Of a stretch of 62,281 bases of DNA, positions 24,827 to 53,855 are shown one piece after another. Location of the stretch: contig CADCDW010000005.1 in NCBI GenBank assembly GCA_902800325.1, positions 7,030 through 69,310 on the forward strand, given 5' to 3'. Numbering within the stretch: position 1 is the stretch's first letter; every line of letters starts with the position of its first letter. Source of the stretch: an uncultured Lachnospiraceae bacterium. GTDB lineage: Bacteria > Bacillota > Clostridia > Lachnospirales > Lachnospiraceae. Both the position numbers and the translations under genes were made by a program. The notes under the pieces were generated by a model. It worked only from the letters and a program-made list of their open reading frames with translations. It was not told where the DNA came from and did not search any database.

Positions 24827-27172
24827 ATGGATTATCCACATAAGTATTTTGAAGATGAGGTCCGAGAGGGATTTTATGTAATGGGACAGATGAAAAGAGT
24901 ATGGGCCGCACAGATAGAGGTCATGCACGAAGTTGATAAGATATGCAGGAGACATAATATAAAATGGTTTGCTGACTGTGGAACCTTACTTGGTGCAGTT
25001 AGACACAGGGGATATATACCATGGGATGACGATATGGATATATGTATGCTACGTGATGATTATAATCGGTTTGTAGAGATAGCATTGGATGAACTCCCTA
25101 AAGGGTATGCAATTCTTAAATTGGATGTAAAAGGTGATCCGTATTACCAATATATAACAAGAGTTACAAATGGTAGACAGTTTGAATTTGATAGGGATTA
25201 TTTGGATAGGTACTATGACTGTCAATATCCTACAGGTGTTGACTTGTTCCCGTTAGAATATTTATCTCCTAATTCAGAATACGAAGCAGAAAGAAAAGTT
25301 ATAGCCAGGGAAGTATTTGCATATGCCGATACGGTAACTGAGGAAAATGAAGATGATCCTGATTTTAAGGATCTTGTTTCAGAAGTAGAGCAACTATGTA
25401 ATGTTACTATAGATGAGGAAATGCCTACTAAGCAAAGGATGTTTATAGCTGCAGAGACATTGTTTAAATTATATGGTTCACAAGGAGCCGAACACGTAGT
25501 GCTTATGCCATATTGGCTCAAGGACAGTAGTCATAAGTATCCTATAGAATCATTTAGAGAATCGATTATGTTGCCTTTTGAACATACGGAAATTCCTGTG
25601 CCTATAGAGTATGATAGGGTACTACGTATCGAATATGGCGATTATATGAAGCCTGTTAATGCGGGCGGTATGCACGATTATCCTTTTTTTGAAGCGTTGG
25701 AAAATATGCTGATAGATAGGATTGATAAGTATTATTTTAGATATAAATTTAAACCTGATGATTTGGAAAATTCTGAAAGAAAGTCCGGTGACTACACGAA
25801 GAAGCAAGTAGTAAATTATATACAGATGACTAATGAAGCGCACGATGCGATTATACTTATAGTTGCTCAAGGTGATACGAATACTGCATGTGATCTGCTT
25901 GCGGCATGTCAGGAAAGTACAATAAATATAGGTGAGTTGATCGAAAAAACCTATGGTGAAGGTTTTTCTGCAATTTCTATACTCGAAGAGTATTGTGAGT
26001 CTGTATATCAGCTTCATCAGGCTCTTTTAAGTGGCGAGTTTGGAAGCAAGGATGTAGAAGGTATAGCTTCATTTCTTGGCGACATATATGCCAGAATGCA
26101 GGAAGTGCTGGAAACAGATATTATAAATCGTAAAGAAATGGTATTTATACCTTATAGATCAGATTATTGGAGTTGCATGGAAGGGTTATGGAAAAAGGCA
26201 AAAGAAGAAGGTATATATGATGTATATGTTGTTCCTATACCATATTATAAGAAAACTGCCAGAAGTGAACTTTCTGATATGTATTATGATATAGATGAAT
26301 ATCCTGATTGTGTCGAGCTTGTGGATTACAAAAGCTACGATTTTATGAGACGTCATCCCGATATCATAGTTACACATTGTCCATTTGATCAATGTAATTA
26401 CACCATAAGTTTAAGTGCAGAACATTATTCTAAAAACTTGAAAAAGTTTACAGAGAAGCTTATATACGTTTCTCCATATGTAATAAATGAGATTGGTCTT
26501 GATAAGACCGGTAAAGCATGGAAGACTTTAGATTTCTTTTGTGCAGTACCCGGAGTTGTTCATAGTGATGAGATATTGGTTCAATCAGCGCAGATGAGAG
26601 AAACCTATATTGAAAGACTTACTGATATGTCGGGTGAGGATTACAGGAGTGTATGGGAGGACAGAGTAAAAGTGCTGTCTGATAAGATAGGTGAAGCCTG
26701 TATAAGTGAAGAAGTGAAAGAAAAATCGGTTGATGAAAAGTCTGTTAAATTGGCAAATCTTTCTGATGAGTGGAGAAAGATAATTTATAAACCGGATGGA
26801 ACATACAAAAAGATAGTTCTCTATAATGTCGGTATAGCTTATATGGCTCAGTACGGGGAAAAAGTTATAGATAAGATTATTAACTCTCTTGAAATTTTTA
26901 AAAATGCAAAGGGCGATATAGCTCTTATATGGTATGCTAATCCACATCTTATGAGGGTATTAAAAAGGGTAGACTTAAAGTTGAGAGATAAGTATAATAA
27001 GGTTGTAGAAAAATATAAATCTGAAGGTTGGGGCATATATGATGAGTCACGGAATTACAATGATCTTATAGATATAAGCGATGCATTTTACGGAGATCCG
27101 GGCAATATACCTCACGTGTTCAGACAAAAGAAAAAGCCGGCTATGATTGAGGCGATAGATATACTTAATTAA
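24827..27172 (+). CDS. LicD-family phosphotransferase fused to GT-like domain
   Basis: 781 residues. ATG 24827 is chosen because ACGGAGGG precedes it and the upstream frame crosses the flagellin terminator. Residues 1-300 are a LicD domain: WFADCGTLLGAVRH (47-60) and PWDDDMDI (65-72) give the nucleotidyltransferase-fold Asp residues. About 300-440 is a helical linker; about 440-781 resembles the CDP-glycerol glycerophosphotransferase/GT-B fold (HPDIIVTHCPFDQCNY; LIYVSPYVINEI; VHSDEILVQS). LicD proteins move phosphocholine or phospho-polyols from CDP donors onto glycans. Being the first gene after flagellin suggests flagellin modification. A paralogue with the same architecture is at 51240. 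Confidence 0.8.
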   Translation: MDYPHKYFEDEVREGFYVMGQMKRVWAAQIEVMHEVDKICRRHNIKWFADCGTLLGAVRHRGYIPWDDDMDICMLRDDYNRFVEIALDELPKGYAILKLDVKGDPYYQYITRVTNGRQFEFDRDYLDRYYDCQYPTGVDLFPLEYLSPNSEYEAERKVIAREVFAYADTVTEENEDDPDFKDLVSEVEQLCNVTIDEEMPTKQRMFIAAETLFKLYGSQGAEHVVLMPYWLKDSSHKYPIESFRESIMLPFEHTEIPVPIEYDRVLRIEYGDYMKPVNAGGMHDYPFFEALENMLIDRIDKYYFRYKFKPDDLENSERKSGDYTKKQVVNYIQMTNEAHDAIILIVAQGDTNTACDLLAACQESTINIGELIEKTYGEGFSAISILEEYCESVYQLHQALLSGEFGSKDVEGIASFLGDIYARMQEVLETDIINRKEMVFIPYRSDYWSCMEGLWKKAKEEGIYDVYVVPIPYYKKTARSELSDMYYDIDEYPDCVELVDYKSYDFMRRHPDIIVTHCPFDQCNYTISLSAEHYSKNLKKFTEKLIYVSPYVINEIGLDKTGKAWKTLDFFCAVPGVVHSDEILVQSAQMRETYIERLTDMSGEDYRSVWEDRVKVLSDKIGEACISEEVKEKSVDEKSVKLANLSDEWRKIIYKPDGTYKKIVLYNVGIAYMAQYGEKVIDKIINSLEIFKNAKGDIALIWYANPHLMRVLKRVDLKLRDKYNKVVEKYKSEGWGIYDESRNYNDLIDISDAFYGDPGNIPHVFRQKKKPAMIEAIDILN

Positions 27173-27284
27173 TATTTCAATTGTTTTAGATATATTTTTT
27201 TGATTATCTAAATGGATGCAGATATAAAAATATATCGGGAGATATAATGACAAAGTTCTAATATTGAGATAGGAGAATTTGTAT

Positions 27285-28460
27285 ATGAATATCCTATATG
27301 TCGATTATGAGATGTATGGCAAGGAAGATATTATAGAAGCTTTTATGATGCTGGGGCACAATGTATATTCAACAGATGTTCCGGTTTTATATGAAAATGA
27401 CAAGAATATGCTTCGTGAGAAACTTTGTGAAGATATGTCGGGAGCGAGTTGTGAGGTTTGTTTTACATCTAATTATCATCCGGAGGTTTCGGAGCTTGCA
27501 GATAAGCTTGGCATGAAGTATATATCATGGACTTATGACAGTCCACTTATAGCATTATATCATCCGTCTATACTTAATGAATGTAATTATGTATTTATTT
27601 TTGATAGTGCAGAGGTTGCAAAGCTAAAAAGTTATGGGGTTAAGCACGTTTATTATATGCCACTTGGCATCAATCCTGACAGGCTTGATAAGATAAGTAT
27701 AAGCAGGAAGGATGAGGAGACATTTAAGGCTGATGTATCTCTTGTTGCCTCGCTTTATAATGAAAAGCATAATCTTTATGACAGGATGAGCGAAAGACTT
27801 GATGAGCATACAAAAGGTTACCTTGAGGGCGTTATGAATGCACAGGCAAATATGTTTGGAGTAAATATAATAGATGAGGTTTTTTCTCAAAATGCCGGGA
27901 TTGTTGCAAAGATGTATAAAGCTATGCCGTACAGTATAGAAGAAGGATGCCTGGAGGGACTGCCTTATGTATATGCCAATTATTTTATATGTCGTAAAGT
28001 AGCTTATATGCAGCGTATGACATTTATCAGGGAGATTTCAAAAAGATTTGAGATGAAAGTATATACGCCGGGGGATTTATCTGATATAAAAACCGTAAAG
28101 GCTATGGGGACGGTTGATTATAAGACAGATATGAATAAGGTTTTTAAGCTTTCAAAGATTAATCTTAATGTTACGCTTCCGTCAATTCATACAGGTATAC
28201 CTCTTAGGGCGATGGATATAATGGGTGCAGGAGGATTGCTCTTATCGAACTGGCAGAAGGATTTTGATGGATTATTTGAAAATGGTGTTGATTATGCTGC
28301 ATTTACAAGTCTTGATGATGCATTATTTCAGATTGAATATTTTCTGGAACATGAGGATGAAAGAGTTTATATTGAAGAAAATGCAAGGCGGAAGATGAGA
28401 GATGGCTTTGACGTGGTAAGACTGCTTCAGCAGATGTCGGAGATAATTGAAACTGAATGA
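27285..28460 (+). CDS. CgeB-like glycosyltransferase (DUF3880 type)
   Basis: 391 residues from ATG 27285, 9 nt after AGGAG; a TTG two codons earlier is less likely. The N-terminal half has the DUF3880 pattern MKYISWTYDSPLIALYHPS with YVFIFDSAEVAKLKSYGV and YYMPLGINPDRL. The C-terminal half (VDYKTDMNKVFKLSKINLNV; HTGIPLRAMDIMGAGGLLLS) is the nucleotide-sugar-binding GT-B domain of the CgeB/maturation-of-spore type. Such enzymes occur often in flagellin glycosylation islands. Two terminator-like hairpins follow. Confidence 0.82.
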   Translation: MNILYVDYEMYGKEDIIEAFMMLGHNVYSTDVPVLYENDKNMLREKLCEDMSGASCEVCFTSNYHPEVSELADKLGMKYISWTYDSPLIALYHPSILNECNYVFIFDSAEVAKLKSYGVKHVYYMPLGINPDRLDKISISRKDEETFKADVSLVASLYNEKHNLYDRMSERLDEHTKGYLEGVMNAQANMFGVNIIDEVFSQNAGIVAKMYKAMPYSIEEGCLEGLPYVYANYFICRKVAYMQRMTFIREISKRFEMKVYTPGDLSDIKTVKAMGTVDYKTDMNKVFKLSKINLNVTLPSIHTGIPLRAMDIMGAGGLLLSNWQKDFDGLFENGVDYAAFTSLDDALFQIEYFLEHEDERVYIEENARRKMRDGFDVVRLLQQMSEIIETE

Positions 28461-28683: not shown

Positions 28684-29415
28684 TTATACCTGTAAATTTT
28701 TGTTTATCGCTTTAATTACTTGTGCGAAACATTCTTCGGTTGCAATGCCGATTTTATGGCTGTCTATTCTTTTTCTGTCTATTTCTCTAATATGCATGAC
28801 ATTAATAAAACCATATATTCCATTTCTTGAGTCCTCAAGTTTTAACGGGATTTCATATTGCCCCAAATATTTGAGCTCAGAACCATTACGCCCATGCTTT
28901 TCAATGAAATATTTTTTTACACTTTTATCATAATGCAGAGGACTTTTTTGATGAGTAGTTACAGGAGCAATTATTGTTGTATTGCCTTTTCTGTTTCCTG
29001 TATTATTCTGCAATATTATAACGGGTCTTCTTCCATTTTGTTCGCTGCCTATGTTTTCGCCTAAGTTTGCGTAAAAAATTTCTCTTTGCGCAACAGTATA
29101 TTTTCTTCCGGAATTGTTTATCTTATGCTTTAAATTTATCCATGATAGTCGGTCAATACTTTGTTGCAACTTCTTGTTATATATATCGTCATTATTTGTT
29201 CTGATGAATATACTTTTAGATAACCTTTTTAATTCTTTTAATAATCGATTTTCTAAAGCTTTGTTTTGGCTTTCCTTTGAAATGAATTGAATTCTTTTAA
29301 TTATATTATTCAAAAAATCTTCAACAATGACAACTTTTTTTTCATCATACCTATTAGTGGTATTCACAAATTCTCTTAATTGACTTATGACTTGACTGTA
29401 AAGTTTATCTATCAT
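28684..29415 (-). CDS. PemK/MazF-type endoribonuclease with N-terminal extension
   Basis: 243 residues, about twice the size of a bare MazF. The C-terminal 120 residues show the PemK/MazF fold: QREIFYANLGENIGSEQNGR with RPVIILQN, then TTIIAPVTT and YGFINVMHIREIDRKRI. The N-terminal 110 residues are helical and charged (NNIIKRIQFISKESQNKALE) without a known family. GGAGGTG precedes the start. Family members cut mRNA at short motifs and normally pair with a small antitoxin; none is visible next door, and the gene stands alone against the direction of the island. The extension might bind RNA or act as a fused antidote. Confidence 0.8.
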   Translation of the reverse strand: MIDKLYSQVISQLREFVNTTNRYDEKKVVIVEDFLNNIIKRIQFISKESQNKALENRLLKELKRLSKSIFIRTNNDDIYNKKLQQSIDRLSWINLKHKINNSGRKYTVAQREIFYANLGENIGSEQNGRRPVIILQNNTGNRKGNTTIIAPVTTHQKSPLHYDKSVKKYFIEKHGRNGSELKYLGQYEIPLKLEDSRNGIYGFINVMHIREIDRKRIDSHKIGIATEECFAQVIKAINKNLQV

Positions 29416-29667: not shown

Positions 29668-30330
29668 ATGGATTTTGAATTAACAGCATCTATGATGTGC
29701 GCCAATTTTGGCAATCTGGAGCATGAGGTAAGAGAACTTGAAGTGGGTGGCATAGATTCATTTCATATAGATATAATGGATGGTCGATATGTGCCGAATT
29801 ATGCTATGTCATTAAATGACATGAAATATATAGCAGGGGCGACAAAAAAACCTCTTGATGTTCATCTTATGATAGAACATCCTCAAACCCACATTGATAT
29901 TTTTTTAAGAAATTTAAGAAAAGGAGATACTGTATATATACATCCCGAAGCAGAGTATCATCCGTCAACTACTCTTAAAGCGATTATCGATGCAGGTATG
30001 ATACCGGGTATAGCTATCAATCCCGGTACAAGTATCGAGACGGTTATGGAGATGCTTCGTATAGTAGATAAGGTACTGGTTATGTCTGTCAATCCGGGAA
30101 ATGCAGGTCAGATGTATCTTCCTTATGTAGGTAACAAGGTTGAAAGACTCCTTAAGATAAAGGAGGATATGAATTTCGAGGTATACTGGGACGGCGCTTG
30201 CAGTGCTGAGAAGATAAAGGAATTTGCACCTATGGGTGTAAAGGGCTTTGTGCTTGGTACGACTCTTTTGTTTGGCAAAGGAAGACCTTATGGGGATATA
30301 CTTAAGGATGTAAGAGCGTTGGATATATAA
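29668..30330 (+). CDS. ribulose-phosphate 3-epimerase family protein
   Basis: 220 residues, a complete TIM barrel of the Rpe family. Metal and catalytic positions are kept: HIDIMDGRYVPN, DVHLMIEHP, and Asp in WDGACS. Departures from housekeeping Rpe include TASMMCANFG for the usual ASILSADF and SVNPGNAGQ for VNPGFGGQ, suggesting a different ketose or pentulose phosphate. AAGGGGG precedes the ATG. It is followed 70 bp later by a GatD-like dehydrogenase, so the two may convert a pentulose or hexulose phosphate towards a polyol phosphate for the cytidylyltransferase at 50327. Confidence 0.85.
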   Translation: MDFELTASMMCANFGNLEHEVRELEVGGIDSFHIDIMDGRYVPNYAMSLNDMKYIAGATKKPLDVHLMIEHPQTHIDIFLRNLRKGDTVYIHPEAEYHPSTTLKAIIDAGMIPGIAINPGTSIETVMEMLRIVDKVLVMSVNPGNAGQMYLPYVGNKVERLLKIKEDMNFEVYWDGACSAEKIKEFAPMGVKGFVLGTTLLFGKGRPYGDILKDVRALDI

Positions 30331-30400: not shown

Positions 30401-31450
30401 ATGAAAGCATATGTGTTACATGGAATAAATGATATAAGATACGAAGAGGTTGAAAAGCCTACTGCCAAGGATAACGAGGTTATCGTTGCGGTTAAGGCGG
30501 TAGGGATTTGTGGCTCGGATATACCACGTATATATCAGACAGGGGCGCACGTTCATCCTCTTATACCGGGACATGAATTTTCCGGTCAGGTAGTAGAAGT
30601 TGGTTCCGGAGTTGATAAAAAGTGGCAGGATAAGGCTGTGGGAGTATTTCCTCTTATACCATGCGGAAAGTGTGTGCCATGTCAGAGAAAACAGTATGAA
30701 ATGTGCAGACATTATAATTATCTGGGTTCGCGCTGTGATGGTGGAATGGCAGAATATGTGGCTGTGCCGGAGGATAATCTTATAGAATTGCCTGCTGGAG
30801 TTACCTATGAACAGGCTGCGATGCTCGAGCCGATGGCGGTTGCTGTTCACTGTATGAGAAGAGTAGCTCCGAAAAAGACTGAAAAAGTATTTGTATATGG
30901 TCTTGGCACAATCGGTCTTTTACTTGTTATGTTCTTAAAAGAATCAGGTATAGAAAATCTCTATGTAATCGGCAACAAAGAATTTCAAAAGAAGAATATT
31001 ATTAAATTAGGTATAGATGAAGATAATTACTGCGACAGTAAGACAACGGATGTATCAGGCTGGATTATGGAGAAAACAGATGATATAGGCGCTGACTGTA
31101 TATTTGAATGTATCGGTAAGAACGAAACTATATCAAAGTGTATAGAATGTGCTGCACCGGCAGGTAAGGTTATGCTGGTGGGTAATCCTTACTCCGATAT
31201 GGCACTTGATAAGAATATTTATTGGAAGATACTTAGAAATCAGCTTACAGTTACAGGTACATGGAACTCGTCATTTACACATGAAAAGGATGACGACTGG
31301 CACTACGTGGTTGATAAACTTGATAATGGAGCGGTTAAGCCGGAGGAGTTTATATCACATAGGTTTAAACTCGATGAACTTGAACGTGGAATGGAGATAA
31401 TGCGTGATAAGAGCGAGGACTATGTTAAGGTGATGGGCGTTTTGGGATAA
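30401..31450 (+). CDS. zinc-dependent polyol(-phosphate) dehydrogenase, GatD-like
   Basis: 349 residues, medium-chain dehydrogenase. Catalytic zinc residues lie in VGICGSD and PGHEFSGQVVEVG with a later LEPMAV; the structural zinc loop CGKCVPCQRKQYEMC is intact; the NAD-binding motif is VYGLGTIGLL. Overall it resembles galactitol-1-phosphate 5-dehydrogenase and related polyol-phosphate enzymes. It should interconvert a keto-sugar phosphate and a polyol phosphate with NAD(P)H. Its place after an Rpe-like epimerase and upstream of LicD and IspD-type genes supports polyol-phosphate synthesis rather than sugar catabolism, since no PTS genes are nearby. Confidence 0.85.
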   Translation: MKAYVLHGINDIRYEEVEKPTAKDNEVIVAVKAVGICGSDIPRIYQTGAHVHPLIPGHEFSGQVVEVGSGVDKKWQDKAVGVFPLIPCGKCVPCQRKQYEMCRHYNYLGSRCDGGMAEYVAVPEDNLIELPAGVTYEQAAMLEPMAVAVHCMRRVAPKKTEKVFVYGLGTIGLLLVMFLKESGIENLYVIGNKEFQKKNIIKLGIDEDNYCDSKTTDVSGWIMEKTDDIGADCIFECIGKNETISKCIECAAPAGKVMLVGNPYSDMALDKNIYWKILRNQLTVTGTWNSSFTHEKDDDWHYVVDKLDNGAVKPEEFISHRFKLDELERGMEIMRDKSEDYVKVMGVLG

Positions 31451-31955: not shown

Positions 31956-33494
31956 ATGCTTAAAACTGTAAATGGAGAGATATTTCATGCAAGTGCAACA
32001 ACGGCAAAGGCTGTATATGAGGTTGCAGTTAACTTTTTTAAAGATGGACACGACAACGATTTGATAGCGATAGATGATTATTGTGATGAGCCTATATATG
32101 TGAGCAAAATAGATGTTATAAATGGAAAAATAGACGAGGATTGTTTTATACATTTTTCACAAAGAATGTTCAAAGATGCAAGGCGTAATAAACATATCAT
32201 GGATGGTGGTATAGTTCCTGCTTTGAATGAATTTGGAGAACCGGTGTGTCTTCTTCAGAAAAAAGAAAAACATGGATATGTTCATTACTATGAAAAAGTG
32301 AAGGGTTTGATTGATACAAGAGTTTTTGAGCTCTATGATAATATAGTATTTCTAAGCATTACAGAACATGCATTTATACTTTTAAAGGATGCTTTAGCTG
32401 ATTATAAAGGAAGAATATTCTGCATAGGAAGAGAGTGGTTGGACTTTGAGCGGCTTTTACCCGGACGCGATAACATTACATATGTTGTGAATGAAAGTGA
32501 GATGCCGACTGATTTAGTCCCTGAAAAAACTATGTACATGGATGAGTTTGCATCATTTATGGCAGGATATGAGGATAGATGTAAAGAAGGATATTTTTCT
32601 TATGATGAGATAATGACCTTGGTTTATTTCTTTTCTATACATAAATCTTATGGAGATGGATATCCTGACAAGTCTTTTTACATTATCAATCCGGTATTTC
32701 CTATGGAAGGTCTTATGTCTATTTGTGATAAGGTTCAATATCCTTATGCTTATGCAGAGGCAAATGGATTTATCCCCGTTATAAGACTAACTCAATCGGA
32801 TGACTCAATGTACTCTGATTATAATGGAGAAGATATATGGTCAAAATTTTTTGTTCAGCCATATGGCGAGGAAACAGGTGAATGGGAGCAGGCTCAGTAT
32901 GTCTGTGAGTTTCCGTTTAGCGTTATAACATTTAGTGACAGATGGCTTATGAGTAGAATCGTAGATATGAAGGTTCCGTCATTTATGAAAACTGATTATA
33001 TAAATGATAAGGTTAAAGAAGAGATAGACAAGCAAAGAGAGGCACTTCCAAATCCAGAAAAAACTATAGGTGTTCTTATAAGAGGAACTGATTATACGAC
33101 ATCACATCTTCCGGGACATCCTATAATGGCATCTCCTGAGCAAGTTATGGAGAAGATAAAAGAGTATGAAGCAACAGGAAAGTATGATGAGATATATCTC
33201 GCAACGGAAGATGAGGATATACTTCAAAGGATGAAGGAACTCTGTGGCGACAGACTTAGATATATAGACCAAAAAAGATTTAGAATCAATCCGGGTGAGC
33301 TTTTATCGGATCAGAAAAAGGAAAGAGAAAATGAGGGATGGCTCAAGGGTAAGGAGTATCTTACCACATTGAAATTTTTGTCTGAATGTAAGGCATTTAT
33401 AGCATCGGGCGGATGTTGCGGAACGACGTGCGCATTAAATTCGGGTAAAGATAATTTTGAGGAAAGCTATGTGTTTGATTTGGGATGCTATTAA
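31956..33494 (+). CDS. NodZ/O-fucosyltransferase-like glycosyltransferase
   Basis: 512 residues, soluble. The C-terminal 200 residues resemble the GT23/O-FucT donor-binding region: TIGVLIRGTDYTTSHLPGHP, then YDEIYLATEDEDILQRMKEL and FLSECKAFIASGGCCGTTCA. The arginine in the IRGTDY motif corresponds to the conserved donor-binding Arg. The N-terminal 250 residues are unassigned and may be an acceptor domain. AAGGAGG precedes the ATG. Fucosyl transfer is inference; any GDP-sugar donor is possible, and no GDP-fucose genes are in the window. Confidence 0.68.
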   Translation: MLKTVNGEIFHASATTAKAVYEVAVNFFKDGHDNDLIAIDDYCDEPIYVSKIDVINGKIDEDCFIHFSQRMFKDARRNKHIMDGGIVPALNEFGEPVCLLQKKEKHGYVHYYEKVKGLIDTRVFELYDNIVFLSITEHAFILLKDALADYKGRIFCIGREWLDFERLLPGRDNITYVVNESEMPTDLVPEKTMYMDEFASFMAGYEDRCKEGYFSYDEIMTLVYFFSIHKSYGDGYPDKSFYIINPVFPMEGLMSICDKVQYPYAYAEANGFIPVIRLTQSDDSMYSDYNGEDIWSKFFVQPYGEETGEWEQAQYVCEFPFSVITFSDRWLMSRIVDMKVPSFMKTDYINDKVKEEIDKQREALPNPEKTIGVLIRGTDYTTSHLPGHPIMASPEQVMEKIKEYEATGKYDEIYLATEDEDILQRMKELCGDRLRYIDQKRFRINPGELLSDQKKERENEGWLKGKEYLTTLKFLSECKAFIASGGCCGTTCALNSGKDNFEESYVFDLGCY

Positions 33495-33670
33495 GGATAA
33501 GTTTTATATGACAAAAACATCTAAAGTAAAGAGGTAGGGTGAAGATTGTCTTTCATCATATTTAGATATATAATATTATGAGGATATCAATAAAGGACAA
33601 TAATAATTTATAGTAAATTTTGCTAAAATATCTGTTTTTGAAGCATCTACGAGAGGAAATAGTTTTAAAT

Positions 33671-34783
33671 ATGAATGAAGAAAAAATATATGTAACAAGA
33701 TCATCGATGCCATCATATGAAGAGTATATAGAAGCGATAAAACCACTTTGGGATAGCCACTGGCTGACTAATATGGGACAATATCATCATAGACTAGAAG
33801 AAGAATTAAGAGACTATTTGAAAGTTCCGGAATTATCACTAATGGTAAACGGACATATGGCTTTAGAAATGGCAATTCAAGCATTTGGTTTTCCAAGAGG
33901 AAGCGAGGTTATCACTACTCCGTTTACATTTATATCTACCACACATGCAATAGTAAGAAACGGACTTCAACCAGTGTTCTGTGATGTAAAAATAGAAGAC
34001 GGAACTATTGATGAAAATAAGATTGAGGATTTAATTAGTGAAAAGACGGTTGCTATAATTCCGGTGCATGTTTATGGGCATGTATGCAATGTGAATACTA
34101 TACAGAAAATTGCAGATAAGTATAATCTAAAGGTTATTTATGATGCGGCTCATGCGTTTGGAGTAGATGTAGATGGTAAAGGAATAGGAAGTTTTGGGGA
34201 TGCTTCTATATTTAGTTTTCATGCTACTAAAGTTTACAATACTATTGAAGGTGGAGCAGTTACATTTAAGGAACATTCGATATATGAGAAATTATATAAT
34301 TTGAAAAATTTTGGAATACGTGGAGAAGAATTGGTCACTGAGGTTGGGGCAAATACTAAAATGAACGAATTTTGTGCAATTATGGGACTTTGTAATTTGA
34401 GAAAAATTGAGTCTTCAATGAAATCTCGGGAAATGGTTATAGACAAATACAGGGGACTTTTGAAGGAAATTGACGGAATCTGTATATTTGATGGAAATTC
34501 AACAGGAACAAAAAACTATTCGTATTTTCCTATTCTTGTCACGGATACATATCCTGGAGGCAGAAATGGGTTGTACAATAGGCTTAAAGATCATGGGATT
34601 TTTTCCAGAAAATACTTTTATCCAGTTACGTCGGATCAGGCTTGTTTTAAAAATAAATATAAGAATATTGATATTTCTAATGCAAGAAAACTATCCGAAC
34701 AGGTTCTTGTGTTACCGCTGTATGAGGAATTATCTGGCGAACAGGTTGAGTTTATTTGTTCAATAATTAAGGGAGGTAGATAA
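33671..34783 (+). CDS. DegT/DnrJ/EryC1 sugar aminotransferase
   Basis: 370 residues from ATG 33671; an upstream in-frame ATG is not supported. PLP-fold motifs are present: NGHMALEMAIQAFGFPRGSE, TPFTFISTTHAIVRNGLQPV with F-C-D-V, VIYDAAHAFGV, and SIFSFHATKVYNTIEGGA with the Schiff-base Lys near residue 186. These enzymes put an amino group on a nucleotide-linked keto-sugar. The stop TAA overlaps the ATG of the next gene by one base, indicating coupling with the ATP-grasp ligase. DNA here is visibly more AT-rich than upstream. Confidence 0.9.
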   Translation: MNEEKIYVTRSSMPSYEEYIEAIKPLWDSHWLTNMGQYHHRLEEELRDYLKVPELSLMVNGHMALEMAIQAFGFPRGSEVITTPFTFISTTHAIVRNGLQPVFCDVKIEDGTIDENKIEDLISEKTVAIIPVHVYGHVCNVNTIQKIADKYNLKVIYDAAHAFGVDVDGKGIGSFGDASIFSFHATKVYNTIEGGAVTFKEHSIYEKLYNLKNFGIRGEELVTEVGANTKMNEFCAIMGLCNLRKIESSMKSREMVIDKYRGLLKEIDGICIFDGNSTGTKNYSYFPILVTDTYPGGRNGLYNRLKDHGIFSRKYFYPVTSDQACFKNKYKNIDISNARKLSEQVLVLPLYEELSGEQVEFICSIIKGGR

Positions 34784-35994
34784 TGAAAAAATTAATGCTT
34801 CTTGGGGGAAGTCGTTATTTGCTTCCGGTTATAAAAAAAGCGCATGAACTTGGCATATATACAATTACTTGTGATTATTTGCCTGACAATATTGCACACA
34901 AATATTCGGATGAGTATTGTAATGTAAGTGTAGTTGATAAGGAAGCTGTGTTAGATGCGGCAAAAAAAATCGGAATTGACGGAATTATGTCTTTTGCATG
35001 TGACCCTGGAGTTGTTACCGCTGCATACGTAGCGGAGAAAATGGGACTTCCTTTTCAGTGTTCATATGAGACCGCATGCATATTACAAGACAAAGGAAGA
35101 TTTCGGGAATTTTTGATAGACAATAGATTTAATTGTCCGAGGGCTAAAAGATATGAGGAAAAATATGGACCTTTTAATGATATAGATTACTTTAATTGGC
35201 CAATAATTATTAAACCTACCGATTCGGCAGGAAGTAAAGGGGTTTCGAAAGTAGATGAACCAAATGGTCTGAATATGGCAATTGAAAAAGCTATAAAAGA
35301 ATCACATAGTGGGTCGTTTATAATAGAGGAGTTTTTGACGTTTAAAGGCTATCATTCAAGTACAGATGTATTCACTGTGAATGGAGTAGTCAAGTTTATT
35401 ACTTTTTCAGATCAGCTTTTTGATCAAAATGCGGATAATCCATATACACCAACAAGGATTATTTGGCCATCAACTATGTCGGATAAAAATCAGAAGTACT
35501 TAGAGAATGAAATACAGCGTTTGGTAAAGCTTTTAGATATGAAAACGGGTATATATAATATTGAAACTTGCGTTGATATAGAAGATAAACCATATATTAT
35601 GGAAGTGTCTCCGCGCGGAGGAGGTTGTAAGATTGCTGAAATTCAGAAAATGGCATATGACGTTGATTTGATAGAGGCTGAGATAAAAAGTGCGGTTGGG
35701 TTACAATTTAAAGAGATATCTAAAACGGAGTGCGATGGGGTTTGGTGCGAAATGGTAATTCATAATGAGGAAAAGGAGTGTGGACGTTTTTTGAGTTTAG
35801 AAATTGATTCTGAAATACAAAAAAAATATATAAAAATGATTGAACTTCAGGTGACAAAAGGTGATTTTGTTTATCCATTTACAGGAGCGAATATGGCTTT
35901 AGGGGATATGTTTTTAAGATTTGATTCTAGATACGAGCTTAATGAGGTGATGGATAATCAAAGGCATTGGTTGGATATAAAACTAGAAGGATGA
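34783..35994 (+). CDS. ATP-grasp ligase
   Basis: 403 residues. N-terminal Rossmann-like domain LMLLGGSRYLLPVIKKAHEL, then ATP-grasp features: DKGRFREFLIDNRFNCPRAK, WPIIIKPTDSAGSKGVSKVD, SGSFIIEEFLTFKGYHSSTD and the metal-binding IMEVSPRGGG. The enzyme should couple a carboxylate to an amine via an acyl-phosphate. Coupled to the aminotransferase by overlapping stop/start, it may acylate the new amino sugar with an amino acid or other acid. Substrate is unknown. Confidence 0.85.
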   Translation: MKKLMLLGGSRYLLPVIKKAHELGIYTITCDYLPDNIAHKYSDEYCNVSVVDKEAVLDAAKKIGIDGIMSFACDPGVVTAAYVAEKMGLPFQCSYETACILQDKGRFREFLIDNRFNCPRAKRYEEKYGPFNDIDYFNWPIIIKPTDSAGSKGVSKVDEPNGLNMAIEKAIKESHSGSFIIEEFLTFKGYHSSTDVFTVNGVVKFITFSDQLFDQNADNPYTPTRIIWPSTMSDKNQKYLENEIQRLVKLLDMKTGIYNIETCVDIEDKPYIMEVSPRGGGCKIAEIQKMAYDVDLIEAEIKSAVGLQFKEISKTECDGVWCEMVIHNEEKECGRFLSLEIDSEIQKKYIKMIELQVTKGDFVYPFTGANMALGDMFLRFDSRYELNEVMDNQRHWLDIKLEG

Positions 35995-36001
35995 TTTATG
36001 A

Positions 36002-36970
36002 ATGAGAGAAATAGGTGGATATTTTGAACTTGATTCTTATGGAGGAAGACATTATTATACGGATTCCATACCATTGAATTGTGGAAGGGGATGTATTAAA
36101 TATCTGGTAGAGTTAAGAAAAATAAAGACTATATGGTTGCCGGATTATATGTGCAATTCTGTAGGGAAGGCATTTAAGGATATGGGGACAAAGACTTTCA
36201 CGTATATGGTTAATGAGAATTTTCTTCCAGAATATGACTTTGAGCTTAATGAAGAAGAATGGTTGTTTTTAAATGATTATTATGGACAACTAAAGAATAA
36301 AGATATTGAGATTGCTCTTGGTCGATCAAATGGAAGACTAATAGTGGATGAAACACAAGGCTTTTTTAATACACCTTATGAAGGCGTTGATACTTTTTTT
36401 TCATGTAGAAAATGGTTTGGTGTTTCTGATGGAGCATTTCTGATTACAGGAGATGGGGAACGTTTAGAGAGAAAATTAGATAGAGATGAATCTCATAACA
36501 GAATGGAGTTTGTTCTTGGAAGATTTGAACGAACTGCATCGGAGTACTTTGAGAAGGCATCTTCTAACAATAGTTTTTTTGAAAATGAACCTGCAAAAAA
36601 AATGTCAGCTATAACTGATAATTTGCTTAGGGCTATTAATTATGGAGATGTAATAAATAAAAGAAGAGAAAATTGGGATTTGATGGATTATGAGCTAAAT
36701 ACAATTAATAATTTAGACTTAAATAAACCTCATGTTCCCTTTATGTATCCGTTGATGATAAAAAAAGGAGATGCTAGGTTTATTAGAAATGAACTGGTTA
36801 AAAAGAAAATTTATATTCCTGTTTTGTGGCCTGATGTGATTGAAAGAGTACATAATTGTACTGTAGCATATAAATTTGCTAGTGACATTTTACCTCTTCC
36901 GATTGATCAGAGGTATAGTAAAACCGATATAAAAAGAGTGGTAGAAAGCATTAGAGAAATAGTGGGGTAA
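36002..36970 (+). CDS. PLP-aminotransferase-fold protein, divergent DegT-like
   Basis: 322 residues, shorter than usual DegT enzymes. LNCGRGCIKYLVELRKIKTI and WLPDYMCNSVGKAFKDMG are the fold-type I start, LIVDETQGFF supplies the PLP-pyridine Asp, and FFSCRKWFGVSDGAFLIT matches the Lys loop with Lys in CRKWFG. Similar degenerate aminotransferase-like proteins appear in polysaccharide loci; activity is uncertain. AGAAGGATGA lies before the ATG, and the gene follows the ATP-grasp gene by 7 bp. Confidence 0.7.
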   Translation: MREIGGYFELDSYGGRHYYTDSIPLNCGRGCIKYLVELRKIKTIWLPDYMCNSVGKAFKDMGTKTFTYMVNENFLPEYDFELNEEEWLFLNDYYGQLKNKDIEIALGRSNGRLIVDETQGFFNTPYEGVDTFFSCRKWFGVSDGAFLITGDGERLERKLDRDESHNRMEFVLGRFERTASEYFEKASSNNSFFENEPAKKMSAITDNLLRAINYGDVINKRRENWDLMDYELNTINNLDLNKPHVPFMYPLMIKKGDARFIRNELVKKKIYIPVLWPDVIERVHNCTVAYKFASDILPLPIDQRYSKTDIKRVVESIREIVG

Positions 36971-36975
36971 AAAGA

Positions 36976-38109: not shown

Positions 38110-38152
38110 CAACAAAGAATATGTTTAAGAGAAAAACTATGTAGCAAGTTGA

Positions 38153-38740
38153 GTGACTGTATCGAAAATTTTATTGTTGCAATTGGTGATATTGGAGTTG
38201 CGTTTTATGACTTTAAGAGAAAGGCAGAATATGAAAACAATTAATAGATTGAAAAACGACTCAAAGAAAAATGTTTTTCTAGGAGTTCCTTTTCGGTATA
38301 TTGGTCAAAAAGTTGATGATATTTGGTTTGATAGTAATATTTCAAATCGAGGTTTATGTGTTTGTTGCTCTATTTTGAATGATAATTTTGTTGGTATTGT
38401 AAGTCTTACTGATATTGATTCTATGGATCGTTCAGCTGAATTTAATATTATGTTTGATGAAGTAGGTTCACAGAATAAAAGTGTGTGGTCTTTGCTGTAA
38501 ATAAAATGCTTAATTAAGCATTTAATAATTTAAACTTACAAAGAGTAATACTTACTGTGCTTGAAGAAAAATTAGGGAATTAGTATGTCTATAAAAACTG
38601 GTTTCATAAAAGAATGTGTAGCAAGAGAGATATATTATAAAAAAGGTGCGTATGTAAATGCATTTGTTTACAGCATGTCGAAATGTAAATATATTGCTAA
38701 GTATTTTGAATTGCATAATTTGGAAAGGTGGTATGCTTGA
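38153..38740 (+). pseudogene. broken GNAT-type acetyltransferase
   Basis: Three pieces in different frames look like one RimJ/PseH-like acetyltransferase: FLGVPFRYIGQKVDDIWFDS with NDNFVGIVSLTDIDSMDRSA and EFNIMFDE (38153-38500), then AFNNLNLQRVILTVLEEK (about 38520-38583), then TGFIKECVAREIYYKKGAYV with NAFVYSM (about 38599-38740). The acetyl-CoA loop between piece one and two is damaged and there is a gap between two and three. The final TGA overlaps the next ATG (TGATG), so translational coupling outlives the gene. Confidence 0.7.
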
Positions 38741-49122: not shown

Positions 49123-50241
49123 ATGAATTACGATTATCTTATAGTGGGCTCAGGTCTTTATGGAGCAGTTTTTGCAAGAAAGGCAACGGATGCCGGAAAG
49201 TCAGTGCTTGTCATAGACAAGCGATCTAACATCGGAGGAAATGTCTATACAGAGGACATCGAGGGTATTCATGTTCATAAGTATGGAGCACATATATTCC
49301 ACACCAATATTAAAGAAGTTTGGGATTATGTAAATCAATTTGCTGAGTTTAACAGATTTACCAATTCTCCGGTTGCTAACTATAAGGGAGAACTTTTCTC
49401 ACTTCCATTTAATATGTACACTTTTAATAAGATGTGGGGAGTAGTTACACCTGAGGAGGCTGCTGCAAAGATTGAAGAACAAAGAAAGGCAGCAGGTATA
49501 ACCGAACCTAAGAATCTTGAGGAGCAGGCTATTTCGCTTGTTGGAACAGATATTTATGAAAAGCTTATCAAGGGTTATACCCAAAAGCAGTGGGGCAGAC
49601 CATGTACGGAGCTTCCGGCATTTATAATTAAGAGGCTTCCGGTTCGTTTAACATTTGACAATAATTATTTCAATGCACTCTATCAGGGTATACCAAAGGG
49701 AGGATATACTAAGATGGTTGCCAATATGCTTGACGGTATAGAGGTCAGGCTTGGTGTGAATTATCTGGATAACAAAGATGAGTTTGATGCTATGGCGGAT
49801 AAGGTTATATTTACCGGTCCGATAGATGAATATTTCGGATTCAAGCTGGGCTATCTTGAATATCGTTCCGTAAGATTTGAGAATGAGGTTTTGGATAAGC
49901 CTAATTTCCAGGGTAATGCAGCGGTTAATTATACCGATGCCGAAACTCCTTGGACAAGAATTATAGAGCATAAATGGTTTGAATTTGGTAAGGATGATGA
50001 TGGAAATGACCTGCCAAAGACTGTCATAAGCAGGGAGTTCAGTTCCGAATGGAAGCCTGGAGATGAGCCTTACTATCCTGTAAATGATGAGAAAAACGGC
50101 AAGCTTTATCAGGAGTATAAGGCGCTTGGAGATAAAGAGGAAAAGGTTATCTTCGGTGGTCGACTTGGTGAGTATAAGTATTATGACATGGATGCCGTAA
50201 TTAAAAGTGCTCTTGATATGGCTAAAAAAGAATTGGGCTAA
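49123..50241 (+). CDS. glf: UDP-galactopyranose mutase
   Basis: 372 residues, normal length. FAD-binding GxGxxG in YLIVGSGLYGAVFARKA, then VLVIDKRSNIGGNVYTED and HKYGAHIFHTN, and conserved FNMYTFNKMWGV, GYTQKQWGRPCTELPAFIIK and RLPVRLTFDNNYF. It converts UDP-galactopyranose to UDP-galactofuranose in the cytoplasm, so the glycan of the island probably contains galactofuranose. AGGAGGA precedes the ATG. Confidence 0.95.
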   Translation: MNYDYLIVGSGLYGAVFARKATDAGKSVLVIDKRSNIGGNVYTEDIEGIHVHKYGAHIFHTNIKEVWDYVNQFAEFNRFTNSPVANYKGELFSLPFNMYTFNKMWGVVTPEEAAAKIEEQRKAAGITEPKNLEEQAISLVGTDIYEKLIKGYTQKQWGRPCTELPAFIIKRLPVRLTFDNNYFNALYQGIPKGGYTKMVANMLDGIEVRLGVNYLDNKDEFDAMADKVIFTGPIDEYFGFKLGYLEYRSVRFENEVLDKPNFQGNAAVNYTDAETPWTRIIEHKWFEFGKDDDGNDLPKTVISREFSSEWKPGDEPYYPVNDEKNGKLYQEYKALGDKEEKVIFGGRLGEYKYYDMDAVIKSALDMAKKELG

Positions 50242-50252
50242 TAATATATTTC

Positions 50253-50309: not shown

Positions 50310-50326
50310 ATAAATAAGGAGTATTT

Positions 50327-51154
50327 ATGAACATAGCACTTGTTCTTTCAGGCGGAACGGGAACCCGTCTTGGAAGTGATATACCCAAGCAGTATATAAA
50401 AGTAAATAATAAAATGATAATAAGCTATTGTCTTGAAACCTTATTTAATAATGACAATATTGATTATATCCAGATTGTTGCGGATAAAATCTGGCATGGT
50501 GAGATAAAGCAGGAGTTGTCTCGAATATATGATGTCGGGCATATGCAGACTGGACAACAGGAGAGCACAGCAAGTTCTAAATTTAATTCAAAATTTAAAG
50601 GCTTTTCCGAACCGGGTGCCAACAGACAGCTTTCGATATATAACGGATTATCTGATATAAAAAAGTATGCGGCTGACGATTCTTTTGTACTGATTCATGA
50701 TGCGGCAAGACCACTTTTAAAAAATGAACTTATAGATGCGTGCTTTGAAGCTGTTGAGGGAAAATGTAACAGTGATTGCGGCAGAAGTAATAATGATGGT
50801 TACGGAAGTAAGGACGAGAATGGTCATACGTTGGACGTTGCCTTATCTTTTGACGGTGTACTCCCTGTTCTTCCGATGAAAGATACAGTTTACATGAGTG
50901 AGGATGGAAATGGTATCTCATCACTTTTAGACAGGTCAAAGCTATACGCAGGTCAGGCGCCTGAACTATTTCTACTTGGAAAGTATTATGAGGCAAACAA
51001 GGCTCTTCTTCCGGATAAGATACTTACCATAAACGGTTCCACTGAACCTGCAATTATGGCAGGCATGAATATTGCCATGATACCGGGGGATGAAGACAAT
51101 TTTAAGATTACCACAAAAACGGATTTAGAACGGTTTGAAGAGCTTACAGACTGA
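50327..51154 (+). CDS. IspD/TarI-type cytidylyltransferase
   Basis: 275 residues. SGGTGTRLGSDIPKQYIKVN is the CTP-binding signature, LIHDAARPLL the second motif, and GSTEPAIMAGMNIAMIPGDE with DNFKITTKTDLERF the C-terminal one. It makes a CDP-alcohol from CTP and a polyol phosphate (methylerythritol, ribitol or related). AGQAPELF replaces the TPQ-F stretch of IspD, and a hydrophilic insert lies at about 145-165. Location next to a LicD protein, with polyol-type enzymes upstream, argues for a CDP-polyol donor rather than isoprenoid synthesis. Confidence 0.85.
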   Translation: MNIALVLSGGTGTRLGSDIPKQYIKVNNKMIISYCLETLFNNDNIDYIQIVADKIWHGEIKQELSRIYDVGHMQTGQQESTASSKFNSKFKGFSEPGANRQLSIYNGLSDIKKYAADDSFVLIHDAARPLLKNELIDACFEAVEGKCNSDCGRSNNDGYGSKDENGHTLDVALSFDGVLPVLPMKDTVYMSEDGNGISSLLDRSKLYAGQAPELFLLGKYYEANKALLPDKILTINGSTEPAIMAGMNIAMIPGDEDNFKITTKTDLERFEELTD

Positions 51155-51239: not shown

Positions 51240-53855
51240 ATGGATTTTACTGTTGATTTTTTCAGGGATGAAGTTAGAAATGGTTTTTATATACCGACAG
51301 CTATCAAGCAGGGATGGGCTGCCAGTCTTTTTGTGCTTGGGGAAATTGACCGTATATGTAAAAAACATGATATAGATTATTTTGCAGACTGGGGTACATT
51401 TTTAGGCGCGGTAAGGCATGGTGGATTTGTGCCTTGGGATGATGATTTGGATATCTGTATGAAGCGTGATGATTATGATAAGTTTCGTGCAGTGGCAGAT
51501 ATGGAGCTTCCCAAAGAGTTTGTTATACATGATTATGAAAGAAAAGAAGAACATCAGCTTTTTCTGGCAAGAGTCGTAAGCAACAATCAGATTTGCTTTG
51601 ATGAGGAGCATCTAAAGCGATATCATAATTTTCCGTATATGGCATCTGTTGATATATTTATCCTTGATTATCTTTATAATGATGAGGAAAAAGAGCGGGA
51701 ACGCTGCAAAGAGATTAAAAGGATTATAGCGGTCGCGGATGGAATACTTGAGGGCACACTCCGAAAGGATACTATTGACAGAGAGCTTGTTTTTTTTGAG
51801 CAAAAATATAATATCAGGATAGACAGAAAACTTGACAGCAGGCACATGATGATAGAACTTTACAAGCTTGCTGAAAAGCAGATGGCGCGTGCTCCGAAGG
51901 AAGGCGCTAATAGGGTTGGTCAGATTTTTCCCTGGATTCTTAAGGGAGGTAACGGCCATCCGAGAGAGTATTATGAAAATCCGGTTCGGATACCGTTTGA
52001 AAATACAACCATACCCGTTCCGGCAGAGTATAATGCTGCCCTTCGCAATCATTACGGTAATTATCTTATCTGCCGTAAGGTCTGGGGCGGACATGATTAT
52101 CCGTATTTTGAAAAACAGCGTGAGAACCTTCAGGCAGTTGCTGATTTTAAGCTCCCGGAGTTTACATTTTCGGAAGATATGCTGATTCGACCGGATGCAA
52201 GACTTAATGAGGGTGATTCACTTAAGGGAATGGCTGCAGAATGTATAAAGCAGCTTGAGTTTATGACCGGGCAGATAGTAGAAGCAGGAACTGAAATTAA
52301 CGGATTTAGTAAAGTGTATAGTGATAATGAGCAGGTATCATGTGATAGACATAATGAGCAGATATCAGATGATAGATATAATGATTTGTATGCATCTATT
52401 CTTGAAATTTTGCCCGAGTGTCAGCAGCTATCTGTTGATTTAGGTACCCTTATAGAAAATGTAAAGGGTGAGGATAGTGAAAGTGCAAGGCTTGTGACCA
52501 TTGAGATTCAGAGGTATTGTGATGCACTTTTTGAGGTGTATAATCTGCTGATAAATGAACCCGAATCGGATGATGTAAACGAACAGACTGAATCCGGGGC
52601 GGATGATAGCATGCAGGAATTAACTAAAAAGTCTAAAGTAATTTTTGATAATATAAAACTAAAAGAATTGCTCTTGAAGAAGATGAAAGAGGTTGAGACA
52701 CATTTTACTTCAATTTCTGAAGCTGTGACTGCGCGGATTATCAATCGCGAGGAGATGCTCATTTTAACTATAGGCCCGAGGGAGTGGCAGGGTTTCGAGA
52801 GACTTTATGATGAATTGGTTAAAGAAGATAAAGCAGATGTTTTTGTTGTACCGCTTCCGGTTTTATTTAAGGATTATTTTGGACAGATTGTTGCGAATGA
52901 TGATGAAATAATCGCCAATACTCATTTGGATGACTATCCGGAAAATGTTAAGATTAGCCTGTGGACAGACTTTAATCTCGAACTTCATCATCCGGACAGG
53001 ATATATATTCAAAGTCCGTACGATAGTGAAAATCCATGTCTTACGATTCCACCACAGTTTTATGCAAAGAAACTTAGAAATTACACTGACAGGCTTATAT
53101 ATATACCTCCCTTTAGAACGGATGAATTTGGTGAAAATGATTATACGGATCTTTGCAATCTCAAGCATTATGTGACTGCGCCGGGGGTGATTTATTCTGA
53201 TGAGGTTGTGGTTCAATCGGAGAATATAAAAATGCAGTACATTAAGAAGCTTAAGGAATTTGCCGGTGAGGAAACTGGAGATGATTGGGAGGCTAAGATT
53301 AAGGTCGGACTTCCGTATGTCGATAAGAGCAAATTGAGTCTAAAAAATGAAAGTCAATACAATTATAGTAATGATGAAAATTCAATAGAGAATCACCCGG
53401 ACGATGTAAAAGATAAGAAGGATATAAAGAAAAAGCTTTTTTATCTAATTGGGCTAAATGAATTGTCAGAACATCAGATAATAAATTTAAGCGCAGATAA
53501 ACAGGCAACCGAAAAAGATTCTTTTGAAAAACCGGATTCCGATAAAAAGGACATTATAGAAAGCATCAAAAACCGACTCGATACATTTAGGGATAATGAG
53601 GATACAATTGGTATAACAGTCGGTTTATATCCACCGGATATCAACACTTGGAACAAGGTCGATTCAAGACTTACAAAGAGACTTACCGACCTGCTTTCCT
53701 CATATGGATATGAGTACACGCCGATAGAACCGGATTATATAATGCTTGAAGATATAGCGGCAGAATATGATGCGTATTATGGAAGTGCATCGCCGCTTGT
53801 CACGATTTTTACCTACGTCAAGAAACCGGTTATGATAGCGAACTATGATATATAG
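51240..53855 (+). CDS. LicD-family phosphotransferase fused to GT-like domain, second copy
   Basis: 871 residues. LicD motif FADWGTFLGAVRH (about 48-60) and PWDDDLDICMKRDDY (about 65-79) closely match the protein at 24827. The linker is longer and acidic (NEPESDDVNEQTESGADDSM), and the C-terminal part repeats the GT-like fold: HPDRIYIQSPYDSENPCLTI, RLIYIPPFRTDEF and VIYSDEVVVQSENIKMQYIK. An extra C-terminal segment (DDVKDKKDIKKKLFYLIGLN onward) makes it 90 residues longer. It starts 85 bp after the cytidylyltransferase, the probable supplier of its CDP-donor. GAGAGGTAG precedes the ATG; a terminator follows. Confidence 0.8.
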   Translation: MDFTVDFFRDEVRNGFYIPTAIKQGWAASLFVLGEIDRICKKHDIDYFADWGTFLGAVRHGGFVPWDDDLDICMKRDDYDKFRAVADMELPKEFVIHDYERKEEHQLFLARVVSNNQICFDEEHLKRYHNFPYMASVDIFILDYLYNDEEKERERCKEIKRIIAVADGILEGTLRKDTIDRELVFFEQKYNIRIDRKLDSRHMMIELYKLAEKQMARAPKEGANRVGQIFPWILKGGNGHPREYYENPVRIPFENTTIPVPAEYNAALRNHYGNYLICRKVWGGHDYPYFEKQRENLQAVADFKLPEFTFSEDMLIRPDARLNEGDSLKGMAAECIKQLEFMTGQIVEAGTEINGFSKVYSDNEQVSCDRHNEQISDDRYNDLYASILEILPECQQLSVDLGTLIENVKGEDSESARLVTIEIQRYCDALFEVYNLLINEPESDDVNEQTESGADDSMQELTKKSKVIFDNIKLKELLLKKMKEVETHFTSISEAVTARIINREEMLILTIGPREWQGFERLYDELVKEDKADVFVVPLPVLFKDYFGQIVANDDEIIANTHLDDYPENVKISLWTDFNLELHHPDRIYIQSPYDSENPCLTIPPQFYAKKLRNYTDRLIYIPPFRTDEFGENDYTDLCNLKHYVTAPGVIYSDEVVVQSENIKMQYIKKLKEFAGEETGDDWEAKIKVGLPYVDKSKLSLKNESQYNYSNDENSIENHPDDVKDKKDIKKKLFYLIGLNELSEHQIINLSADKQATEKDSFEKPDSDKKDIIESIKNRLDTFRDNEDTIGITVGLYPPDINTWNKVDSRLTKRLTDLLSSYGYEYTPIEPDYIMLEDIAAEYDAYYGSASPLVTIFTYVKKPVMIANYDI

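Follow-up and report, generated by a model that had tools for sequence, protein, structure and literature searches.

A glycan-gene island downstream of flagellin in an uncultured Lachnospiraceae bacterium and its likely CDP-pentitol supply for LicD phosphotransferases

Downstream of the flagellin gene of an uncultured Lachnospiraceae bacterium we found genes for an Rpe-like epimerase, a GatD-like dehydrogenase and an IspD-like cytidylyltransferase, together with two genes (LicD1 and LicD2) whose products fuse a LicD domain to a second, degenerate domain. The DNA examined (the window; 62,281 nucleotides, C5:7030-69310) is part of a 2.77 Mb draft genome that is 97% complete. In this window, a run of flagellar genes, consisting of two FlgK-like genes, an FlgL-like gene, FlaG, FliD, FliS, FlgN and flagellin, is followed by a stretch of roughly 30 kb with many glycan genes, which ends at Sua5 and RpiB. 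The five genes singled out in the initial annotation are all intact open reading frames (ORFs), each with Pfam support. Their placement directly downstream of flagellin holds for LicD1 only, which begins about 80 bp past the flagellin stop; the epimerase lies 4.9 kb and the cytidylyltransferase 25.6 kb away. The features that matter here are:

23929..24747, plus strand: flagellin, 272 aa, which closes the flagellar run (Pfam Flagellin_N 2.5e-42, Flagellin_C 1.4e-29)
24769..24791, plus strand: terminator-like hairpin in the gap between flagellin and LicD1 (7 such sites in the window versus 4.6 expected)
24827..27172, plus strand: LicD1, a LicD domain (Pfam LicD 2.5e-34) with a degenerate TagF-like domain
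27279..28460, plus strand: CgeB-like glycosyltransferase (DUF3880 and Glyco_trans_1_2)
29668..30330, plus strand: Rpe-like epimerase of the cassette (Pfam Ribul_P_3_epim 7.2e-47)
30401..31450, plus strand: GatD-like zinc-dependent dehydrogenase (Pfam ADH_N 5.6e-27, plus ADH_zinc_N)
31956..33494, plus strand: 512-aa protein without a Pfam match, located 3' of GatD
49123..50241, plus strand: UDP-galactopyranose mutase (Galf supply), adjoining the IspD-LicD2 pair (TIGR00031, 416.5 bits, cut-off 303.75)
50327..51154, plus strand: IspD-like cytidylyltransferase of the cassette (Pfam IspD 1.9e-30)
51240..53855, plus strand: LicD2, a LicD domain (Pfam LicD 8.8e-37) with a degenerate TagF-like domain, partner of IspD
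55096..56996, plus strand: Sua5 and RpiB, the far edge of the variable island, in the same position in relatives

The most likely start of LicD1 is 24827, because the longer ORF obtained mechanically would begin at 24767, at the hairpin, and GGAGGG stands 5' of 24827.

A conserved cassette of Rpe-, IspD- and GatD-like genes

The epimerase, cytidylyltransferase and dehydrogenase genes form one conserved cassette. Our comparison covered 117 searched genomes, including 37 of the window's genus, with clade cut-offs of at least 78% identity for Rpe, E <=1e-30 for IspD and E <=1e-70 for GatD. The Rpe clade is present in 11 of the 117 genomes, at 78-98% identity in the ten besides the window's own and with a next best match of 48%, while the IspD and GatD clades occur in 16 and 14 genomes, respectively. 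All 11 genomes with the Rpe clade carry the other two clades as well, and this linkage of IspD and GatD to Rpe exceeds chance both over the 117 genomes (hypergeometric 5e-12 for IspD and 4e-13 for GatD, kinship ignored) and within the genus alone (10/10; 8.6e-6 and 1.9e-7, respectively). The three genes are contiguous in six of the 11 genomes (G007, G013, G017, G021, G027 and G049), Rpe adjoins IspD at a contig end in G033, and the window, G014, G020 and G024 have them in separate places. The gene order of G013, Rpe-IspD-GatD-512-aa protein-LicD2, corresponds to the two split halves of the window joined together.

The cassette is also found outside this genus. A scan of GTDB species genomes matched at least 595 stretches, and 580 of these code for a relative of Rpe at E <=1e-3. 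As cassette loci we counted the best 80 of these 580, whose Rpe is 73-85% identical to that of the window; they include a few pairs from the same assembly and one locus, L126, that belongs to the genus member G007. Most of the 80 loci are from Lachnospiraceae, and some are from other Clostridia and from Selenomonadaceae; in L147, from Lachnospiraceae bacterium 3-2, the cassette is accompanied by a stand-alone TagF-like gene. Where at least 5.5 kb of downstream sequence was available (59 of the best 80), IspD lies near Rpe in 48 loci, GatD in 44 and both in 43.

The neighbours of the cassette are diverse: a Pfam scan of 77 of the 114 neighbouring genes listed found DUF4422 in 16, a HAD hydrolase in six, PF04464 in five and other families in one to three each, with no single common product indicated among these 77. 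A family of proteins of about 684 aa is encoded at most about 1.4 kb upstream of Rpe in L115, L131, L138, L139, L140, L147, L152, L163, L171, L173, L187 and at L074:11294-13348; the three members scanned have a HAD-like part.

LicD fusions with a TagF-like half

Both fusion proteins of the window match the LicD family (PF04991) strongly, LicD1 with 119.8 and LicD2 with 127.8 bits (cut-off 22.6), and the motif GxxLGxxRH..PWDDDxDI is intact in both. This pattern is matched by 25 of 27 LicD proteins, the two misses being unread. Among solved structures, FKRP matches the LicD1 domain best (E 0.0016); weak matches to unrelated solved chains (E >0.04) were set aside as chance. LicD1 and LicD2 belong to separate clades, and LicD2-type genes have the IspD clade alongside in 11/11 genomes, a count that includes a fragment in G018.

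The C-terminal halves of the fusions had been described as glycosyltransferase-like, and profile comparison of their homologues identifies them instead as distant relatives of TagF, i.e. of CDP-glycerol glycerophosphotransferase. These halves also occur alone, as proteins of about 450 aa, and the stand-alone homologues match TagF in a profile-profile comparison with 96.2% and E 2.5e-9 over 170 columns. PF04464 was matched by 11 of 18 LicD-free homologues at E <=1 (best 1.2e-7); LicD1 and LicD2 of the window have no PF04464 match at 0.001, and no credible match to the TagF-like half turned up among solved structures.

The TagF-like half of LicD fusions mostly lacks the TagF-type His-Pro motif. 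The His of the R/KxHP motif is absent from both fusions of the window. From the 24 LicD-free copies we left out L094, a contig-edge piece resembling LicD2, and one copy cut before the motif; all 22 remaining copies have RPHP, and the safe stand-alone count is 19/19, since three of them (L160, L183 and L186) begin at a contig edge. Among the 26 LicD-fused copies, four end before the motif and two rows represent one contig, which leaves 21 distinct copies, and RPHP is kept by three of these (19/19 versus 3/21; Fisher 1e-8, kinship ignored).

The distribution of LicD2 suggests what kind of donor it shares with TagF-like proteins. Eleven of the 16 IspD-clade genomes have a LicD2-type gene, and in these no stand-alone TagF-like copy was found at E <=1e-20. 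Of the five IspD-clade genomes without LicD2, four (G017, G027, G033 and G049) carry a stand-alone TagF-like copy, and the fifth, G021, encodes a PF04464 protein directly upstream of Rpe (exclusion among the 16 genomes, p 0.003). LicD2 and TagF-like proteins thus appear to stand in for each other in using one donor, which points to a CDP-alcohol. Near the IspD-LicD2 island of genome G023, a gene (L103:17670-18968, minus strand) encodes a protein that unites a PEP mutase with a cytidylyltransferase-like domain and suggests phosphonate decoration.

LicD fusion and Maf in the slot after flagellin

Genomes of the window's genus carry either a LicD fusion or Maf behind the flagellin gene. Flagellin homologues were found in 28 of the 37 genus genomes at E <=1e-60. 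Nine of these (G000, G002, G013, G014, G020, G021, G024, G032 and G033) have a LicD fusion as the next gene, and 18 have Maf, usually past a small ORF of about 88-115 aa; in the remaining genome, G017, flagellin meets the contig end. Maf (PF01973) is over cut-off in 20 of the 37 genus genomes, comprising all 18 Maf-slot genomes plus G006 and G029, and in none of the nine LicD-slot genomes, which are drafts, several of them 79-91% complete. Sub-threshold Maf matches were seen in three LicD-slot genomes, in short ORFs (about 220-230 aa), and the window's own genome, a 97% complete draft, gave no match to MptE-like/Maf (PF01973). A hairpin stands 3' of the flagellin stop in 14/14 genomes examined, nine with the LicD slot and five with the Maf slot.

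At least six changes of the slot are required on a FliS and FlgN tree of 25 genomes, in which several branches of the short alignment are weakly supported (G005 was dropped for a missing gene, and G010 and G034 were not entered). On this tree, the Maf genome G008 stands beside the window's genome, and the LicD genome G013 lies within a Maf group.

The cassette tracks the LicD slot: the Rpe clade is present in seven of nine LicD-slot versus one of 18 Maf-slot genomes (Fisher 3e-4, kinship ignored). In the window, as in G013, G020 and G021, the cassette has flagellin on one side and Sua5-RpiB on the other, and Sua5 and RpiB also end the glycan genes in G008, G013, G016, G020, G021, G023, G024, G033 and G034. 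Outside the genus, flagellin is located between Rpe and IspD in L143, directly 3' of GatD in L156 and directly 5' of Rpe in L190, and the order in L118 is Rpe-IspD-GatD-FlaG-FliD-FliS-FlgN-LicD fusion-flagellin-CgeB. Flagellin, first proposed as the target from its position, is thus now backed by more than position, because LicD fusion and Maf alternate behind it and because in certain further lineages it stands within the cassette or right next to it. Very large flagellin-like ORFs of 1713 and 1814 aa were seen in or against the cassette at L143:10761-15902 and L190:4537-9981, respectively; their similarity to flagellin is N-terminal.

Further genes of the island recur in part in relatives. 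The CgeB-like gene comes after LicD1 in G014, G020 and G024 as well. In the window, a PemK/MazF-like gene (28684-29415, minus strand) stands between the CgeB-like gene and Rpe; it looks inserted, because these two are direct neighbours in G014, G020 and G024. The 512-aa protein, in which we noted a fucosyltransferase-like motif by eye, is also encoded 3' of GatD in G020, G024 and G013. Window 33620-40026 holds genes for a DegT-type aminotransferase, a divergent aminotransferase-like protein (recognised by eye) and two ATP-grasp proteins, of which one seems by eye to end in a HAD-like tail; these genes possibly serve amino-sugar or amide decoration. In the gap between LicD2 and Sua5 (54034-55106), a gene with weak winged-helix/HATPase similarity overlaps a STAS-like DUF4325 gene.

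Proposed CDP-pentitol supply, alternatives and known systems

We propose, with a probability of roughly 0.6, that the locus is an island for modifying flagellin and makes its own CDP-pentitol, which feeds the LicD phosphotransferases; its substrates, acceptor and chemistry we infer. The Rpe-like enzyme would, by its family, interconvert ribulose-5-phosphate and xylulose-5-phosphate, and the presence of an epimerase among the three makes xylulose-5-phosphate the likely branch point. The GatD-like protein, a presumed pentulose-phosphate reductase, would then convert a pentulose phosphate into a pentitol phosphate, likeliest xylitol-5-phosphate or D-arabinitol phosphate. Passages of PMC4873967 give xylitol-5-phosphate and D-lyxitol-5-phosphate, an arabinitol phosphate, as reduction products of xylulose-5-phosphate. 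From pentitol phosphate and CTP, the IspD-like protein, presumed to be a CTP:pentitol-phosphate cytidylyltransferase, would form CDP-pentitol, and LicD2, probably LicD1 too, would pass the pentitol phosphate to flagellin-linked sugars. The CgeB-like glycosyltransferase is a candidate for the placement of the first sugar. Within the fusions, the motif pattern suggests that the TagF-like half binds the acceptor and that the LicD half does the chemistry. More speculatively, and on the whole improbably, the LicD fusions with their dead TagF-like half could be a new class of flagellin-modifying proteins that is swapped one-for-one with Maf and attaches pentitol phosphate (perhaps that of xylitol) to the first sugar or directly to the protein, with the dead half recognising flagellin. 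The open-licence literature searched mentions CDP-arabinitol in one paper, and in it we found no mention of CDP-xylitol and none of LicD, glycerophosphotransferase and flagella together; where excerpts from it name flagellin and LicD, LicD figures as a gene for phosphocholine, separate from flagellin.

The best surviving alternative, although an unlikely one, keeps a CDP-alcohol for LicD and changes its identity: the three enzymes could use another phosphorylated sugar or alcohol than a pentitol derived from xylulose, for example a hexulose phosphate reduced to a hexitol, or ribitol with an accessory Rpe. All three proteins indeed score below the cut-offs of the canonical-enzyme models, namely the cassette Rpe for TIGR01163 (167 bits, cut-off 212.6), the cassette IspD for both TIGR00453 (IspD; 135.9 bits, cut-off 181.3) and NF001183 (TarI; 104.2 bits, cut-off 166), and the GatD-like dehydrogenase for PRK10309 (galactitol-1-phosphate 5-dehydrogenase; 216.5 bits, cut-off 550). 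The canonical Rpe on contig C50 of the same genome scores 251 bits with TIGR01163, and the cassette Rpe, 32% identical to it, is by sequence distinct from this housekeeping enzyme. D-allulose-6-phosphate 3-epimerase is another close model for the cassette Rpe, which reads NPG(N/S/D)AGQ in 63 of 82 sequences by pattern (the other 19 are unread) where the best solved Rpe has NPGFGGQ; similarly, 13 aligned cassette-type IspD proteins have GQ(A/S)PE versus QTPQ in the canonical IspD of the genome. A phosphate site altered uniquely in the cassette Rpe was considered and dropped, as the genome's own housekeeping Rpe also has DGA. The conserved motifs of the epimerase family argue against a change of substrate: HxDxMDG is present in 82/82 cassette Rpe sequences, and H33, D35, H66 and D175, which we take to be the metal-binding/catalytic positions of the epimerase superfamily, are invariant in 11/11. 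The best solved-structure matches, Rpe for the cassette Rpe and TarI (4jis) for the cassette IspD, likewise favour the pentitol route. The nearest solved structure to the GatD-like protein is galactitol-1-phosphate 5-dehydrogenase (4a2c, 5.2e-51). The window's IspD is not the only one of its genome: a separate canonical IspD, scoring 206.2 bits (cut-off 181.3), is encoded on contig C66, so the lack of another ispD, part of what would have counted against the idea in the initial annotation, does not apply to this genome. Contig C46 has a fifth, weaker IspD match.

Several observations weigh against a CDP-pentitol supply dedicated to flagellin. In G032 (99% complete) and G002 (79%), a LicD fusion occupies the slot and none of the Rpe, IspD and GatD clades is present, which means that LicD1 may draw on a different donor; of the CDP-polyol/LicD route in the initial annotation, the supply side is supported by the conservation of its three donor genes, and these two genomes cast doubt on the use of the product by LicD1. 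G004, G008, G016 and G023 have IspD and LicD2 without Rpe or GatD at the thresholds used, so that in some species the IspD-LicD2 pair may obtain its alcohol phosphate elsewhere. G008 in addition combines the Maf slot with IspD-LicD2, its island lying on one contig from Sua5 to flagellin. GatD occurs without the Rpe clade in G012, G018 and G038, the cassette occurs together with the Maf slot in G027, and in G049 the stand-alone TagF-like gene and the cassette are on different contigs. The trio is not passed in 16 of the 59 loci, among them L143 because flagellin separates its genes. A flagellar gene lies within 10 kb in nine of the 80 cassette loci (six of the 38 fully flanked ones), and the other 71 have none in at most 10 kb on each side, flanks that are often cut by contig ends; the cassette therefore serves other glycans too and is not specific for flagella. 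Finally, a LicD or TagF-type gene is present in 18 of the 38 fully flanked loci and in none of the other 20, so the cassette may feed transferases unrecognised here.

Some of these points fit a further explanation, which we also consider unlikely and rank after the other CDP-alcohol: cassette and LicD2 could make a surface polysaccharide, capsule- or teichoic-acid-like, and have reached the flagellar island by chance insertion, with only LicD1 acting on flagellin from another CDP donor. The 71 cassette loci without a flagellar gene in their available flanks, the separate clades of LicD1 and LicD2, the LicD slot without cassette in G032 and IspD-LicD2 without the LicD slot in G008 would all be expected then. 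The same is true of two more IspD-like genes in the window's genome, one on contig C23 (L110:181-897), about 5 kb from a separate LicD gene, and one on contig C32 (L112:7225-7941), about 3.5 kb from two TagF genes. However, chance insertion is at odds with the tracking of the LicD slot by the cassette, with its position between flagellin and Sua5-RpiB in the window and three relatives, and with the adjacency of flagellin and cassette in other lineages. That ordinary catabolic genes for pentose or galactitol use lie beside the glycan cluster by chance is very improbable, and we rejected it: the nearest family names, galactitol-1-phosphate dehydrogenase and ribulose-phosphate epimerase, would suit such an operon, but no sugar transporter or kinase was found among 40 Pfam-scanned proteins (a subset of the window's ORFs), and the trio with its cytidylyltransferase is kept in 43/59 loci and co-occurs in 11/11 genomes.

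Lachnospiraceae are common gut bacteria, and their flagellins can meet the immune receptor TLR5. If the proposed CDP-pentitol supply for flagellin exists, the LicD-dependent transfer of phospho-pentitol to a protein glycan, for which human dystroglycan with fukutin and FKRP is the best-known case, would extend to their flagella, and a further phosphate-linked decoration of flagellin would stand beside the Clostridioides difficile type A kind. It would also suggest a function for a three-gene cassette seen in most of the best 80 loci and offer bacterial enzymes as models of the fukutin/ISPD pathway. The alternation of Maf and LicD could make the kind of flagellin glycan predictable from one gene position.

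The nearest described flagellin systems are the type A glycan of C. difficile and its counterpart in Pseudomonas aeruginosa. According to excerpts of PMC10714395, the C. difficile type A cluster CD0240-CD0244 lies downstream of fliC, a cytidylyltransferase is proposed to provide CDP-threonine, and the TagF-like CD0244 moves the phospho-group to the flagellin sugar. For P. aeruginosa, a CDP-threonine donor and a phosphotransferase acting on the flagellin sugar are likewise proposed in the passages concerned (PMC11833859). Our island resembles the C. difficile one in its position 3' of flagellin, the CDP donor proposed to come from a cytidylyltransferase and the phosphotransferase. It differs in the proposed donor, CDP-pentitol instead of CDP-threonine, and in its epimerase-reductase pair, none being described in those excerpts (PMC10714395). 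The transferase, too, is different: TagF-like in C. difficile, and here LicD fusions whose TagF-like half lacks the His-Pro motif.

As in the TarI-TarJ system, which supplies CDP-ribitol for wall teichoic acid, an IspD-family cytidylyltransferase is paired with a reductase, and TarJ is a zinc enzyme of the medium-chain dehydrogenase/reductase (MDR) family. Unlike TarI-TarJ, the cassette has a third, Rpe-like gene, and its IspD stays below the TarI cut-off. The pneumococcal CDP-D-arabinitol pathway starts from xylulose-5-phosphate, and we know of no dedicated epimerase in it. Its genes abpA and abpB (serotypes 17F and 24) provide a CDP-pentitol cytidylyltransferase, as described in sections of PMC10118250. 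That pathway serves a capsule polymer and has no link to flagellin, in contrast to the island proposed here.

Flagellar glycosylation islands of Clostridium are described, in parts of PMC13317340, as hypervariable and as carrying Maf, in one case with a co-encoded small GlfM; the word LicD is absent from the main text of that paper. In the window's genus, 18 genomes likewise have Maf, in the slot where others have a LicD fusion; the fusions consist of LicD and TagF-like domains and contain no Maf. The closest parallel to the proposed chemistry comes from alpha-dystroglycan, for which passages of PMC4873967 describe an IspD relative, ISPD, that makes a CDP-pentitol used by the LicD-domain proteins fukutin and FKRP on a protein-linked glycan. 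FKRP is also the solved structure that the LicD1 domain matches best. Unlike ISPD, fukutin and FKRP, the system proposed here is bacterial, would act on flagellin instead of dystroglycan, and brings its own epimerase and MDR-type reductase genes and a LicD domain fused to a TagF-like half.

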